Shown here in pieces: positions 1,762 to 6,726 of a DNA stretch of 64,000 nt. The notes beneath the pieces were generated by a model. The model had not been told where the DNA came from, did no database searches, and saw nothing but the letters and a program-made list of their open reading frames with translations. The translations under genes were made by a program, and so were the position numbers. This DNA comes from Agromyces fucosus (GTDB taxonomy: Bacteria; Actinomycetota; Actinomycetes; Actinomycetales; Microbacteriaceae): NCBI RefSeq assembly GCF_004134865.1, contig NZ_SDPO01000001.1:434001-498000 (forward strand), in the 5' to 3' direction. The stretch's first letter is position 1. Each line of letters begins with the position of its first letter.

Positions 1762-1799
1762 TTGGTGGATCTGAGGGGACTCGAACCCCTGACCCCCTG
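1762..1799. repeat. attL-like direct repeat (3' end of tRNA-Ala)
   Basis: Thirty-eight bases identical to 6650-6687. It covers, on the minus strand, the variable region, T-arm, 3' acceptor strand and CCA of tRNA-Ala. After base 1799 the match stops, so this copy lacks the anticodon arm, D-arm and 5' acceptor strand and is not a functional tRNA. It marks the left junction of the island. Confidence 0.85.
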
Positions 1800-1966
1800 A
1801 CAGTGCTGCACATCACCTAAGCGCACGTGTGTGGTTGTGGATGCCAGTAATCATCAGCCCCAGGCGGCCGCGCGAGAGATGCCGTGGTGTCCGTTGGCTG
1901 CGGTCAATTGCCGTTGCCTGCGGATGAAAAGGGACCCAAAAGCGTCCCACGCAATCCGCGCCGACC

Positions 1967-2182
1967 TCATGCCGACTCGTGCGACCGGATCCACATCGAG
2001 CAGTCCCACGCCCGACCAGACAGTTCGTACCCGAGACATGGCAGACGCATCCCGGTGACGATGTCGATACCGTCGATCTGCAGCCCACGGATTCCGGCCC
2101 CGACCTGTGTGATCGTCGCGCTCAGCTCATGATTAGGCGTGCTGAATGAGAGCTCGTATTGTTCACCGGTGGGTAGACGCAT
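1967..2182 (-). pseudogene. Aldose 1-epimerase (mutarotase) 5' remnant
   Basis: The first ~45 residues read like the N-terminus of actinobacterial aldose-1-epimerases: PTGEQYELSF, then LSATITQVGAGIRGLQIDGI, where the family has 'G..Y.L.....AVVTEVGAGLR....DG'. After that the reading frame leaves the family and stops, so only about a sixth of a normal ~300-residue mutarotase is left. Its start codon lies 2 bases beyond the SIS-isomerase stop codon, consistent with a former sugar-catabolism operon. Identification rests on a short match and is moderate. Confidence 0.5.
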
Positions 2183-2184
2183 AC

Positions 2185-2588
2185 TCAGGTAGTCTTCGTT
2201 ACTTTGGCTAGTCCGGCGGGGCGATCCGGGTCGAGTCCACGGCGCAAGGCAAGCTCGAGAGCCAGCCGTTGCAGCGGGAAAATATCGACGAGCGGCGAGA
2301 GTTCAGATGCGACCATTGCCGTCGGCACCTGCACCTGCGCGACATCGATGACGCAGCCACCGACTTCGGCAATCACGCCGCCCAGTCGGCGCGCTGCATC
2401 GGCGAACGAGATGACCGAATCGCGACCTGCTTCGCCGCTGGTCAACGCAACCACACCTGTCCCTCGCACGACTTGCCCGAGCGGTCCATGCGTCGCATCG
2501 GCCGCGCTCCAGCCAGAGGCGGCGATCGCATTCGTCTCCATGAGTTTGAGGGCGCCTTCCTTTGCGGTAGCCATCGAGATGCGCCGCC
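2185..2588 (-). pseudogene. SIS-domain sugar-phosphate isomerase, 3' fragment
   Basis: About 130 residues match the second SIS domain of GlmS/AgaS/FrlB-like proteins: ISMATAKEGALKLMETNAIA (the family's 'ATAxEGALKLKE' helix), the ATHGPLGQV loop ('HGP' is diagnostic), and the terminal DIFPLQRLALELALRRGLDP followed by a 'GL.KVT.T' tail. The first SIS domain is missing. Upstream the frame runs directly into an unrelated hydrolase-like piece near 2589, so the 5' half was deleted. The intact gene would have isomerised or deaminated an amino-sugar or glycated-amino-acid phosphate; the fragment should be inactive. Confidence 0.75.
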
Positions 2589-2720
2589 ACCGATCGGCGC
2601 CGACATATCAGCAGATCCGTGGAGGATAAGGGTCGGGGTAGTGAGTTCGTTGGCATGCGTGATCCAATCGAAGCGGCGCAGCCCAACTGGCGCAGCGAGA
2701 CCTGTGATGCGTGATATCTG
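2589..2720 (-). pseudogene. Alpha/beta-hydrolase fragment
   Basis: A ~43-residue stretch, ISRITGLAAPVG followed by FDWITHANELTTPTLILHGS and ADMSAP, resembles the strand before the acid-residue loop of serine alpha/beta hydrolases ('..LTVPTLILHGTADTSVP'). No nucleophile elbow (GxSxG) or catalytic histidine is present. It is joined out of frame to the SIS fragment, so it is a third broken gene on the same strand. The match is short and may be overread. Confidence 0.4.
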
Positions 2721-2942
2721 CCGGTTGTCGAGCCACGGCACGGCGAGCGCGCCGGTCCATGGGGGCAATCCCGATCTAGCGCAATTCGCCTTGATTGTCG
2801 GCGAGTTGCAGCGGCTAGAATCCTTGCGGGTCAAGTCATGATACGCGTACCATGCGGCTACGGGCATTCCATTGGATATTTGCCCTCGTCGACGGTGACG
2901 GGTCTGCGGTCGACTTTCCATTCGAATGAAGGGCGCAGTTCA

Positions 2943-5276
2943 ATGACGTCTCTGTCACTTCAGAGGGACCGGGCGCGCAGGCGCTTGGCCCCGACCGTTG
3001 CGGTCGCGGTCACGGCCGCACTCGCTGTCGCGATGATCACTGGCTCGCCGGGTGCGGCGTATGCCAGCGATGGCGAACCTGATGCTCATGGTTCGCTAAG
3101 TAGTACTGCGGCGTCTCCAGCGATGCTGATGGCCGGTGCTGCGGCTCGCACCGACGGGGCAGTCGAGGTCCATCAAGCCGACGCCCACTACTGGGTTGAG
3201 GGCTTCAACGACTCGGGCGCCACGCTGACGTGGACGGTCACCTCGGATGCGGCTGTCTCGTACAACATCGTCGCTCTGTTGTCGTCTTCCTCATCCGTAG
3301 CCCTTCGGCTGACCAGCACCAAGAGCGGGCAGCCGACGAGGACTCTCGACGTTGCGACGCACTCCTTCGGATGGGATCGGCTCAGTATGGGATCGATCAC
3401 GATCCCCGAGGGAACCAGCACCCTGGAGTTGAAGCGGACCTCCGTGGGCAGCTCGGCCATGGACATCAAGTCTCTCGAGTTCTTGGCGACCTCGCAGCAG
3501 TCGACTTTCGATGCTGCCGTTGCCGATTCCAAGCGCCCTGCCAATCAGTGGTTCAGCGACGCCGGGTATGGCTTGTTCTTCCAGTACGGAGCGTGGGGGT
3601 ATCCGCAGTCCGGCGCAAAGAAGTCAATGCTCGACCAAGCTTGCGACTTCGATGTGCCAGCGTTCGTGAACAACGTGAAGTCCACGGGGGCGGCCTACGT
3701 CGTCTGGTCGTACACCTGGTGGACCTATCAAATCAGTGGAGGGAACTCTGCAATCGACACGATTCTCGGGGGGGCGCCGAACAGCAACACCCTCACGGGT
3801 CAGACGTGTTCGGACGGAAGCTCAGCCGATCTGAACCGCAAGATCGGGGCCGCACTCACTGCGCAGGGGATCCGGTTCATGCTCTATTACCACAACGGTC
3901 ATGATCAGGACGCGAACTGGTGGGACCGCCAGGACTTCCCCTCGTCGTTCCGGCTCACGGGTGTTGGTGATCGCGCGACGTTTTTCACCAACTGGAAGAA
4001 CGTGATCACGGCGATCGGAAATCAATTTGGAACCGATCTTGACGGCTGGTTCTTTGACGACGCCTCGTACTACTACCCGGCGAAGTTCGAGGAGCTGCAG
4101 GAGACGGCCCGGGTAGGAAACCCGGATCGGCTGGTTTCCTGGAACAATTGGGAGGCTGCGGCATACACCCCGTTCTCGGACTGGCTGAACGTCGACAGCT
4201 GCGGACCACTCGGTCCCCGCGCCGGCTCGCCGGTGGGTTCGACAGGGGTTTACACGAGTGGACCCTTTGCAACGCTGCGCGCGCACTGCAACTATCTTCT
4301 CAATGGCGGCTGGGGGGTCTACCAGCCAAACACACCCATTTCGCTGAGCAGCGGGCTCACCACCGACAGGGTACTGAACGACCTGCAGACCGCGCGATCG
4401 GATCACAAGACAATCAGTTTCGTGCCGATGATGTGGGAGGGGGGCGTCTGGGATCCGGAAACCCTCGCGCTGCTCCGTGAGGTTGGCCAGAGGTATCGAG
4501 CCGCGACATGTGGAACGCGCTGCTTCGAGCTCAACAACACCGCGTCGTCGATCACCTACACGGGCTCGTGGGCCCACTCCGCGAACCGCAACGCGGGCGA
4601 CTATCAGAACGATGTGCAGTACACGACCACGAATGGCGACGCGGCGACGGTGACGTTCACTGGAACGGGAGCGCGCGTCTTCATGCCGACCCACAGTTCC
4701 TACGGAGCATTCACAGTCACAGTCGACGGGGTCGCCAAACCGGGCACATTCACCGCATACGCCGCGAGCGGATACAACCCGAAGCAGAAGACGGTCGACA
4801 TCGACGGGTTGGCATACGGCCCGCACACGCTCACGATCACCAAGACCGGAGGCAGCTACTTCCAAGTCGACTCAATCCAGTACGACGATTGCGGCACGTC
4901 GGCGTGCACCCGTATGAACAACGACAACGCCTCCATCGCGTACAGCGGATCGTGGACCACGGCAAGCAACCGAAACGCTGGCGACTGGAACGACGATGTC
5001 CGGTACACGATGACCAACAACGACACCGCAACCATCACGTTCTCGGGCGCGGCGGCATACGTGTACATGCCGACCAACCCGTCGTATGGAACCTTCACGG
5101 TGAAGGTCGACGGCGTGAGCCAACCAGGCACCTTCACTGCCAGCAACTCAGGCGGGTACAGGGCGCGGGTGCTGACTTACTCGGCAACTGGATTGTCGGC
5201 CGGCCCCCACACACTGGAACTGAAAAAGACAGGAGGCAGCTACTTCCAGATCGATCACGTCGACATCCGCCAATAG
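2943..5276 (+). CDS. Secreted GH29-like (alpha-L-fucosidase-fold) glycoside hydrolase with duplicated C-terminal modules
   Basis: A 777-residue exported enzyme and the only intact gene of the island. Residues 1-38 form a signal peptide: basic RDRARRR, a hydrophobic core, then a likely cleavage at AYA-S. Residues ~50-195 look like a beta-sandwich module. The barrel (about 203-510) begins WFSDAGYGLFFQYGAWGYP, equivalent to the 'WF..AKFGIFIHWG' opening of GH29, and holds DLDGWFFDDA, where Asp372 or Asp373 is the candidate nucleophile. Residues ~527-650 and ~655-777 are two homologous modules, each starting with a cysteine pair (CGTRCFELNN; CGTSACTRMNN) and ending GGSYFQxDxI-like, probably carbohydrate-binding domains. 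I chose ATG 2943 because AAGGG sits 9 bases upstream and it places the signal peptide at the N-terminus. The substrate is unproven; it could belong to a relative of GH29. Confidence 0.72.
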   Translation: MTSLSLQRDRARRRLAPTVAVAVTAALAVAMITGSPGAAYASDGEPDAHGSLSSTAASPAMLMAGAAARTDGAVEVHQADAHYWVEGFNDSGATLTWTVTSDAAVSYNIVALLSSSSSVALRLTSTKSGQPTRTLDVATHSFGWDRLSMGSITIPEGTSTLELKRTSVGSSAMDIKSLEFLATSQQSTFDAAVADSKRPANQWFSDAGYGLFFQYGAWGYPQSGAKKSMLDQACDFDVPAFVNNVKSTGAAYVVWSYTWWTYQISGGNSAIDTILGGAPNSNTLTGQTCSDGSSADLNRKIGAALTAQGIRFMLYYHNGHDQDANWWDRQDFPSSFRLTGVGDRATFFTNWKNVITAIGNQFGTDLDGWFFDDASYYYPAKFEELQETARVGNPDRLVSWNNWEAAAYTPFSDWLNVDSCGPLGPRAGSPVGSTGVYTSGPFATLRAHCNYLLNGGWGVYQPNTPISLSSGLTTDRVLNDLQTARSDHKTISFVPMMWEGGVWDPETLALLREVGQRYRAATCGTRCFELNNTASSITYTGSWAHSANRNAGDYQNDVQYTTTNGDAATVTFTGTGARVFMPTHSSYGAFTVTVDGVAKPGTFTAYAASGYNPKQKTVDIDGLAYGPHTLTITKTGGSYFQVDSIQYDDCGTSACTRMNNDNASIAYSGSWTTASNRNAGDWNDDVRYTMTNNDTATITFSGAAAYVYMPTNPSYGTFTVKVDGVSQPGTFTASNSGGYRARVLTYSATGLSAGPHTLELKKTGGSYFQIDHVDIRQ

Positions 5277-5558
5277 CTAGCCCCTCCCCAGGGCCCGGCT
5301 GCGACATCGGTGTCGCGCCCTCGGCTCGTGTTCGATCGCGTTCGTTGAATGAGTCTCGGTCCTGCGATCGCGAAGCGAGTCCGAACCCGCGCGCGCGTGG
5401 TTGACGCACTACTCGAACTCGCCGGCATCGACTAGGGCGCACCTATCCGCGCGCGCCTCGATTGCGCCGCTCACCACGAGTGTCGTTGATGCTTGACGGC
5501 GCTCAGTGAATTCCTCAGTTTCGCTCATCGAAATTCCCAACTCCGGGTCGCTTCCGCT
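5277..5558. other. No recognisable gene; weak hairpin after the hydrolase
   Basis: No coding region with family resemblance was found. A possible hairpin lies at 5291-5320: outer GGGC/GCCC and inner GCGACA/TGTCGC around TCGG. It could end the hydrolase transcript, but it lacks a clear T-tract. The rest is probably debris of the decayed element. Confidence 0.4.
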
Positions 5559-5630
5559 CATGAGGGCGGGCCCTTCTCGATGCTGATGGTCTTCGACCAC
5601 ACACCAGCACGAGAAGGGCCCGCTCTCATG
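5559..5630. repeat. 21-bp inverted repeat spanning the IS21-fragment start codon
   Basis: Arms at 5559-5579 and 5610-5630 match at 20 of 21 positions (core GCGGGCCCTTCTCG against CGAGAAGGGCCCGC), separated by 30 bases. The right arm ends with the ATG of the transposase fragment, so a transcript would fold its own start codon into a stem. It could be a translation-limiting structure of the element or a remnant of insertion-sequence end structure. Confidence 0.65.
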
Positions 5631-5777
5631 CTCTCGGAAGAGGCCGACGTGGACATCCACGCGCTCAAACGACAGGCGATGACGATCAGCGAAATCGCCC
5701 GTCGCACCATCCATGACCGTAGAACGATCCGGGCCTACTTGTCCGGCCAACGCACGCCGGGCGTACGGGCGAAGTCG
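5628..5777 (+). pseudogene. IS21-family transposase (IstA-like), 5' fragment
   Basis: About 50 residues match the N-terminus of IS21-type IstA transposases: a short leader, then DIHALKRQAMTISEIARR and TIHDRRTIRAYLSGQRTPGV, a helix-turn-helix that binds the element's ends. The DDE catalytic domain and the partner ATPase IstB are absent. Just after the motif the sequence becomes, on the opposite strand, the broken integrase, so a deletion or recombination joined the two. Not functional. Confidence 0.65.
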
Positions 5778-5779
5778 GT

Positions 5780-6485
5780 GCACATCGCCAAGAAGATCCG
5801 ACGGCCGCGGCCCCATCCGGTCCTCGCGATTCTGGTAGTCGCGAATGATCGCCCGAAAGTGCTCCAAATCAATCGCATCGGGCGCGTGATCGGCTTCGGC
5901 CGTTTCTTGACGCTCCTCACCTCTCGAGCTGGATTGGCGATCATGAGATCGTTCATGACGCATACGAACGGATCTGACTGATCAGCGCCTTGTATGTATC
6001 CGCCTGTCTGTGCATCTCCCTGTGGATGGACTTGTAGACCCGCAGGATCGCGCTCGCCTTGATGTCCCGAAGTGAAAGGGCTCCCATCAGCGGCGCGATC
6101 TTCTTCTGGATCAGTCGCCGGTTCTCGTGCCGCGTTGTACGCGTTGATCGCCGGTGAACGCCGTTTGTTCCATGTACTCATGGGCGAGCTCGACGAAGAA
6201 CGAGTCCGGCGTCAGACCGTCACCCGTCGCGTGGGCGGCTTCGTACTCCTCACCAACAGCTTCGATGAGCGTCCGCCGTGCGCGCGCCTTGGAGGTCGCG
6301 CGGATGCGGAGCGTGCCGTAGCTCCCGTCGATGCGACGAAAGATGCTGGTTCCTTCGAGACGCCAGTGGTAGATCGTCTCTTTGGACAGCTGCAGGTACT
6401 GCGCCAGTTCGTCGACGCTCAGATAGTCCCCGAGCTTGTCGACGAAGCGGGATGCCGGAACGGTGGGTTGGGTTGATGTGCTCAT
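5780..6485 (-). pseudogene. Excisionase/tyrosine-integrase remnant of the island
   Basis: Read leftward from 6485: DYLSVDELAQYLQLSKETIY is an excisionase-type helix-turn-helix. It runs into integrase N-terminal sequence (FRRIDGSYGTLRI..SKARA, then GLTPDSFFVELAHEYMEQ). After a frameshift near 6120 comes the core-binding domain (RLIQKKIAPLMGALSLRDIK, ILRVYKSIHREMHRQADTYK). After a second shift near 5980 comes VMNDLMIANPAREVRSVKK, and after a third DLEHFRAIIRDYQ with GPRPSDLLGDV, the start of the catalytic domain. The R...HxxR...Y catalytic residues are gone, cut off at the IS21 fragment. Fusion of xis and int implies an internal deletion. Position and direction next to the right attachment site fit the integrase that installed the island. 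Confidence 0.7.
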
Positions 6486-6616
6486 ACTCCTCAGGAGTGC
6501 GCATCACGCCGAAATACTTGCCGTCTCAGGACTTCGCATGTGGATGCCTGTGGCGACCCGTCATCGCTTCGAAAAAGGCCCCAACGGCCCATTTTCCGCA
6601 ATTTTCAACGAAAGAA

Positions 6617-6646
6617 CCCCCGACGAATCTTGCGATTCATCAGGGG
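6617..6646 (-). terminator. Terminator of the surviving tRNA-Ala, brought by the island
   Basis: A 13-bp stem around a 4-base loop. On the minus strand all pairs form, two of them as G-U wobbles that would be mismatches in plus-strand RNA, so it works for minus-strand transcripts. It is followed by TTCTTT. It resembles but is not identical to the hairpin at 1730-1759, consistent with an island that replaced both the tRNA 3' end and its terminator. Confidence 0.7.
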
Positions 6647-6649
6647 TTT

Positions 6650-6687
6650 TTGGTGGATCTGAGGGGACTCGAACCCCTGACCCCCTG
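6650..6687. repeat. attR-like direct repeat inside tRNA-Ala
   Basis: Right-hand copy of the 38-bp repeat found at 1762-1799. It forms the 3' part of the intact tRNA-Ala gene, from the variable region through the T-arm to CCA. In the usual pattern of tRNA integration this half came from the incoming element's attP and restored the gene. Confidence 0.85.
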
Positions 6688-6726
6688 CATGCCATGCAGG
6701 TGCGCTACCAGCTGCGCCACAGACCC
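6651..6726 (-). tRNA. tRNA-Ala (anticodon GGC)
   Basis: A complete 76-base cloverleaf: acceptor GGGTCTG paired with CAGATCC (one G-U), D-stem GCGC/GCGC, anticodon stem CCTGC/GCAGG around loop ATGGCAT (anticodon GGC, reading GCC), T-stem AGGGG/CCCCT with loop TTCGAGT, and an encoded CCA. A TAAGCT box at 6755-6760 on the minus strand is a plausible -10, giving a short 5' leader that contains an inverted repeat (TGCCTCG/CGAGGCA). It is the integration target of the adjoining island. Confidence 0.95.

Follow-up and report, generated by a model that had tools for sequence, protein, structure and literature searches.

A relic integrative element in the tRNA-Ala(GGC) gene of Agromyces fucosus and the tRNA terminator that its family may carry

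The tRNA islands described for Islander consist of an intact tRNA gene and a displaced 3' fragment of it in the same orientation, with an integrase between the two and a length of more than 2 kb (PMC4383910). Elements that keep attL and attR but have lost their integration and transfer genes are known as cis-mobilizable elements (CIMEs; PMC5704250). In ICEKp1 of Klebsiella pneumoniae and similar integrative and conjugative elements (ICEs), integration moves the native terminator of the tRNA gene to the far end of the element, the tRNA promoter drives int, and stem-loops in the int leader attenuate (PMC13023037). KplE1 is a defective element of phage origin, a prophage in argW with a duplicated tRNA core (PMC2951348). 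All comparisons with these systems made here refer to parts of the papers cited. We analysed a stretch of 64,000 nucleotides of the Agromyces fucosus genome (contig NZ_SDPO01000001.1, positions 434,001 to 498,000), called the window below, and found at its positions 1762–6687 what is very probably the relic of an integrative element that targeted tRNA-Ala(GGC). The element would belong to a family present in Agromyces and Mycetocola and would have placed a terminator of its own behind the tRNA gene.

The 4.9-kb relic is bracketed by an exact 38-bp direct repeat, 1762–1799 and 6650–6687, as the initial annotation, made from the letters of the window, had stated. The sole tRNA gene that ARAGORN detected in the window is tRNA-Ala(GGC) at 6651–6726 on the minus strand, and Rfam concurred; 37 of the 38 repeat bases therefore belong to the tRNA gene. 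The gene is intact, its end apparently regenerated, and contains the proximal attachment (att) copy at 6650–6687, whereas the distal att copy at 1762–1799 is a displaced tRNA-Ala(GGC) 3' end, both copies being on the minus strand. The 38-bp repeat itself sits within a family of 52-nt repeats with 92% identity. When 304 kb of the same contig were searched for other sites resembling the tRNA end (at most 11 mismatches out of 37), a single match with 11 mismatches was found, on the opposite strand, which rules out a chance origin of two exact 38-mers 4.9 kb apart. The GC content of 500-base segments wholly inside the element is 0.59–0.64, compared to mostly 0.64–0.75 in the flanks.

The integrase of the relic was compared with those of a genus sample of 60 genomes, i.e. 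the A. fucosus genome and 59 others (designated by G numbers). The open reading frame (ORF) at 6111–6485 on the minus strand opens with an excisionase-type start (6345–6485), which matched HTH_17 with E 2.4e-6 and the TIGR01764 excise model with E 7e-6, the latter just below the cut-off. Over 156 nt, this xis region has a DNA identity of 93% to G049 and 91% to G059 (A. terreus). The adjoining integrase remnant, which covers only the middle part of the gene (5781–6353, minus strand), is 79% identical in DNA to int of both genomes, with three single-base gaps against each. We rejected the idea of a natural chimera of a helix-turn-helix protein and an integrase, as the intact relatives carry two separate genes at this place, for an excisionase of 75 amino acids (G044) and an integrase of 405 amino acids (G059). 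Judged from the alignment ends, 216 bases present in G049 and G059 are missing in A. fucosus (similar figures were obtained against G025 and G044). The heptamer GGCACCG occurs at both edges of the missing part in G049 and G059, and the fused ORF was therefore probably made by a deletion between short repeats. The homology to the integrase ends at 5781, at about residue 217–219 of 405. Since the Phage_integrase domain covers residues 218–371 of the intact protein, the catalytic part is gone. No other match to the integrase was found in the A. fucosus genome at E 1e-10.

An integrase with at least 67% identity adjoins tRNA-Ala in ten other genomes of the genus sample. It is an open gene of almost full length in G059, G049, G010 (A. 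bauzanensis), G023 (A. italicus), G020 (A. humi) and G012 (A. bracchium), the last of these having a contig edge that cuts off the tRNA end, and it is broken into frames in G025, G026 (A. lapidis), G044 and G016. A tblastn search for xis and int (E 1e-3) covered roughly the first 3 kb behind the tRNA, with shorter stretches in G026 and G039, at the 55 tRNA-Ala sites that were readable for both this search and the terminator survey described below; the sites of G011, G012, G050, G051 and G056 were not. It added G013 and G055, which retain xis plus an initial portion of int, as well as G009, G027 and G043 with xis only. Together with A. fucosus, 6 of the 60 genomes thus carry an open integrase gene and 10 carry one that is broken or reduced to traces. 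In a family sample of 349 genomes, A. fucosus included, three matched the integrase at E 1e-60, and an element of 11.6 kb in Mycetocola miduiensis carries a full-length integrase and has both att copies in the same tRNA gene. Full-length versions of the integrase at tRNA-Ala, which the initial annotation had proposed to look for, thus exist in six Agromyces genomes and in M. miduiensis. Its view that an island had landed at the tRNA 3' end and lost mobility is borne out by integrases of the same type at tRNA-Ala in relatives and by the missing catalytic half in A. fucosus.

The ends of the relic also resemble those of other elements. The distal arm (1800–1948) gave BLAST matches of 121–232 nt with 72–75% identity to the distal ends in G059, G031 and G043. 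The core is part of most of these matches, and conservation of the first 60 bp extends to further genomes. The sequence TGTGGATRCC (at most one mismatch) lies 35–37 nt from the core in 13 of the 15 distal copies, being absent in G044 and G045, and also occurs in 11 of the 16 proximal arms. With simple shuffles, the means were 0.19 and 0.24. As the motif was picked after the alignments had been seen and the sequences are related, these counts are descriptive only. In the relic it reads TGTGGATGCC, at 1836–1845 in the distal arm and at 6539–6548 in the proximal one, and it can be considered a putative arm-type binding site.

Two terminator-like hairpins of the relic read in the same direction as the tRNA gene (minus strand), one at 6615–6648, now behind the tRNA (15-bp stem, RNAfold −25.4 kcal/mol), and the other at 1730–1759, beyond the distal att copy (13-bp stem followed by a T tract). 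Compared over 74 nt (1726–1799, including 37 nt of tRNA end), the distal side has 97% identity to the sequence that stands at the tRNA in G014 and 92% to its counterpart in G034. With the terminator part alone, the distal hairpin agreed with these two genomes in 38 of 43 and 36 of 44 positions, respectively, and the proximal one only in 32 of 44 and 33 of 45. The distal terminator is therefore of the native tRNA-Ala type and has been shifted to the other end of the element. The proximal terminator is of the type CCCCTGA..TCAGGGG, as at other sites with the same xis and int. According to a mechanical rule (CCC[CT]TG[AG] within the first 14 nt), 27 of the 55 readable sites have the element-type terminator and 28 have another type. 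Traces of xis/int were detected by tblastn at 15 of the 27 element-type sites and at none of the 28 others (Fisher p 1.5e-6, a value that ignores relatedness). If a second copy of the tRNA end is counted as well, the figures are 18 of 27 and 1 of 28. The one exception is G047, the hairpin of which begins with TCCCTGA; G029 looks like a false member of the element type. Twelve pairs of tRNA gene and displaced copy were readable on both sides. In seven of them (A. fucosus, G010, G043, G044, G045, G049 and G059), the tRNA has a terminator of the element type and the displaced copy one of another type, in five (G020, G023, G028, G031 and G047) the element type, or the variant of G047, stands on both sides, and the reverse arrangement did not occur.

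We lean towards the interpretation that a replacement terminator is a conserved part of this element family, so that integration swaps the terminator of the tRNA gene, shields xis–int and leaves a lasting scar, by which past insertions would be recognizable even after the element itself has decayed. With a terminator standing between the tRNA and xis–int, int should be shielded from read-through from the tRNA. The displaced native terminator and the position of int downstream of the tRNA in the same direction are as in ICEKp1, whereas int is driven by the tRNA promoter there (PMC13023037) and a strong hairpin terminator separates the two here. A limited literature search by title and start of abstract, with most subscription journals outside it, found neither a description of an element-carried tRNA terminator nor of any Agromyces element.

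Several observations weigh against the interpretation proposed here. The region contains five terminator-like hairpins, which is near the shuffled mean of 3.1. In G014, the native-type terminator is followed by a worn xis-like stretch (L069 6189–6282, below the tblastn threshold) with 78% DNA identity to 6409–6501 of the window. A xis-like trace behind a native-type terminator is not predicted by simple insertion and hence speaks against a simple swap; local gene conversion is one possible explanation. At nine of the 27 element-type sites, xis/int was not seen and no second copy is known, and four of the twelve pairs (G028, G031, G045 and G047) are without a xis/int match. Moreover, the pairs of G010 and G020 span two contigs, the copies in G044 and G045 are those without the arm motif, so that some pairings are inferred. 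Finally, none of the relatives compared has an orthologue of the outer flank (past 1726) next to its tRNA.

The same survey data can be used to argue that the element-type terminator is the ancestral one in Agromyces and was not brought by any element. Its occurrence at about half of the sites, 12 of the 27 without xis/int matches, and on both sides of five of the twelve pairs would fit this explanation. We nevertheless consider it unlikely, because the displaced terminator differs in the other seven pairs. That of A. fucosus is of the type found at the tRNA in G014 and G034, and that of G043 resembles the terminator at the tRNA of G039, where no xis/int was seen in the 1.5 kb read. The Mycetocola element, which comes from another genus, likewise has the element-type terminator.

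The empty site was expected by the initial annotation to show the order lysR, terminator, intact tRNA-Ala and rsfS, joined exactly at the repeat. The tRNA side alone was in line with this expectation. The flanks of the relic joined at the repeat are identical to G014 in 276 of 293 positions and to G034 in 276 of 294 (94%), most of the identical positions lying in the tRNA and the rsfS-side flank. G014 was rejected as an empty site on account of its xis-like trace; G034, in which the shared backbone picks up about 0.9 kb after the tRNA, is cleaner. The lysR part of the expected order was not found. In the seven relatives with a strong lysR match, the gene lies 171–199 kb from the tRNA (five genomes) or on another contig (two genomes). 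In A. fucosus, a block of about 57 kb (contig C1 379215–435652, ending near 1652 of the window) holds lacI-like and lysR genes, and neither lysR nor the block was found in the 200 kb of G014 and 220 kb of G034 read. Since this adjoining block was not found beside the tRNA in either genome, the comparison indicates that the lysR flank is not ancestral at this place. In G043, the block lies about 150–210 kb from the tRNA in two pieces in swapped order, as circular permutation would give. A single island comprising the whole of about 62 kb from 378.66 kb of the contig to the tRNA was considered and rejected. No third copy of the tRNA end (at most 11 mismatches) was present at its far edge, and the 57-kb block is therefore treated as a separate variable region.

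The history suggested by the ends and by the intact relatives would be as follows. The ancestor of the relic presumably entered by tyrosine-integrase recombination between an attP carrying the 38-bp tRNA 3' end and the tRNA gene. From the comparison of the ends, the 3' end of the tRNA would have been rebuilt from element DNA, with the terminator of the element set behind it, while the native terminator was pushed to the far end and xis and int came to begin just past a terminator. Later, as the alignments show, a deletion of 216 bp fused xis with int, probably at a short sequence common to both edges, and single bases dropped out. The catalytic half of int was lost as well, beside a probable insertion-sequence remnant, which may have been involved.

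This remnant belongs to the remaining content of the relic, which was correctly described in the initial annotation as mainly gene fragments beside a broken integrase. In addition to the xis/int remnant at the tRNA end, it comprises pieces of SIS and IS21-like genes and one long ORF. The stretch 5559–5780 (plus strand) is probably what is left of an IS21-family element. Directly past the int break, at about 5628–5780, it has an IstA-like start (NCBIfam transpos_IS21, E 1.8e-4 for 40 residues, a match well short of the cut-off for this family), and a 21-nt inverted repeat lies at 5559–5579 and 5610–5630. The fragment at 2185–2574 (minus strand) derives from a GlmS/NagB-II-like gene with a SIS domain, for which Pfam SIS gave E 0.0011, below the cut-off, and NCBIfam NF001484 gave E 2.2e-17 with only the C-terminal fifth of the profile.

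The only gene of the relic that looks intact is an ORF of 812 codons at 2838–5276 on the plus strand. Its product, which has two C-terminal repeats and is probably secreted, judging by eye from a signal peptide, shows weak similarity to GH29 (Pfam PF01120, E 1.8e-4, below the cut-off; α-L-fucosidase 9pnj in PDB, E 1.2e-8). The GC contents of the three codon positions are 0.53, 0.54 and 0.77, compared to 0.70, 0.49 and 0.84 in rsfS. A paralogue with 37% identity is encoded on another contig of the same genome. Two BLAST matches to contig C2, first taken for a mutarotase/SIS paralogue, were rejected as such, since the query offset showed them to be the GH29-like gene and this paralogue. No match to the protein was found in the 59 other genomes of the genus at E 1e-20, and in the family sample the A. 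fucosus genome was the only one with a match at the strict threshold of E 1e-100. The protein may have been original cargo or may have arrived later. The claim that the island had decayed until one secreted hydrolase was left thus holds for the decay of the integrase; the hydrolase as the last remainder is unproven, the protein being seen only in this genome among those sampled.

The contents of three other elements of the family were scanned, and genes of phage-defence type were found in all of them. The 22-kb element of A. terreus encodes AbiEii, LeoA/LeoBC-like, HsdR-like and ankyrin proteins together with a TrwC relaxase (L078 7412–10894), which we take to be of the MobF type. According to the part of a 2017 review considered here, no canonical integrative and mobilizable element (IME) then known encoded a MobF relaxase (PMC5704250), and the A. 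terreus element, with an integrase and a TrwC-type relaxase, would differ from them in this respect. An IME is expected to have an integrase and its own relaxase but no mating apparatus; no secretion genes were found by Pfam among the 12 proteins of this element that were scanned. The Mycetocola element has Abi_2, an HTH-M78 protein and a phage-type regulator (phrog_2439). The third element, in the same tRNA gene of G043 (L082 2900–8200), is only 5.2 kb long and has a Septu-like PtuA/PtuB pair and a xis trace, with no int match within 3.2 kb.

This small element lends some weight to the alternative that the relic has always been a small cargo cassette moved in trans, similar to that of G043, and did not shrink from a larger element. 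We regard this as improbable, because the relic holds a true integrase remnant with a deletion, gaps and a truncation and must therefore once have encoded an integrase. As a further alternative, the tRNA region might have been duplicated or recombined to give the 4.9 kb and the second 38-bp copy, with the integrase fragment there by coincidence. This explanation could draw on the large rearrangement that adjoins the element (the 57-kb block not found at this place in G014 and G034), but it can hardly be reconciled with the integrases at tRNA-Ala in many genomes and with a distal arm consisting of element DNA common to other elements.

A relic of an integrative element of this family remains the preferred explanation. 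The defective state and the duplicated tRNA core are as in KplE1, which is of phage origin (PMC2951348). Phage structural or packaging genes were absent from the Pfam scans of A. fucosus (8 ORFs), A. terreus (12) and Mycetocola (6), and PHROGs assigned only integrase, regulators and unknowns among ten proteins. Matches to phages came from 55 records, all below 60% identity, and the integrases in the best 10 of the 55 reached at most 29.5%. Two plasmid records matched at E 1e-20, with at most 27.2% identity.

Some further sites deserve mention. In G009 (L083 near 13500), a still smaller relic retains a xis trace, and its second core copy, at a distance of 1.3 kb from the tRNA, is worn; no clear terminator was seen at this distal copy. 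G031 (L080, L081) has three further copies of the tRNA-Ala 3' end, none more than about 20 kb away from the tRNA. The distal arm accompanies each of them, and they form an array of tandem elements or relics in which a Mutator-type transposase and a pretoxin-HINT protein are present. A second match to the tRNA-Ala end in G040 (contig C89 890–1722), located 150 bp downstream with 96% identity over 89 nt, is possibly a duplicated tRNA-Ala. In Microbacterium sp. SS28 (L166 near 9667), an integrase with 40% identity was found close to a tRNA-Ala end that has one mismatch and departs from the tRNA after about 25 further bases and perhaps marks a distant relative with a different end.

Taken as a whole, the relic is an ordinary decayed, CIME-like island of a kind already known. 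It has the intact tRNA gene and the displaced fragment in the same orientation that characterize tRNA islands, and it differs from those described for Islander in that the tyrosine integrase between them is present only as a broken remnant (PMC4383910). As in the definition of CIMEs, both att ends are kept and the integrase is broken (PMC5704250). No relaxase was found by Pfam among the eight ORFs of the element scanned. Unable to move on its own, the relic has ends that both look whole, hence its likeness to a CIME, and in principle it could be mobilized by a related integrase. Together with its relatives, it presents graded states of a single type of element at the same site within a genus, from those with an open integrase (A. 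terreus and five others) through the element of G043 and the 4.9 kb described here to the 1.3 kb of G009. Stages of island decay thereby become comparable, the order of states not being a time scale. The new point, and the part that deserves the attention of specialists, is the carried terminator. If the interpretation is true, roughly every second Agromyces genome sampled (27 of 55, as counted with the mechanical rule) runs this tRNA-Ala gene with a terminator derived from a mobile element. If confirmed, it would mean that host tRNA transcription units can have their ends rewritten by mobile elements and that the terminator is a sequence mark of past insertions.

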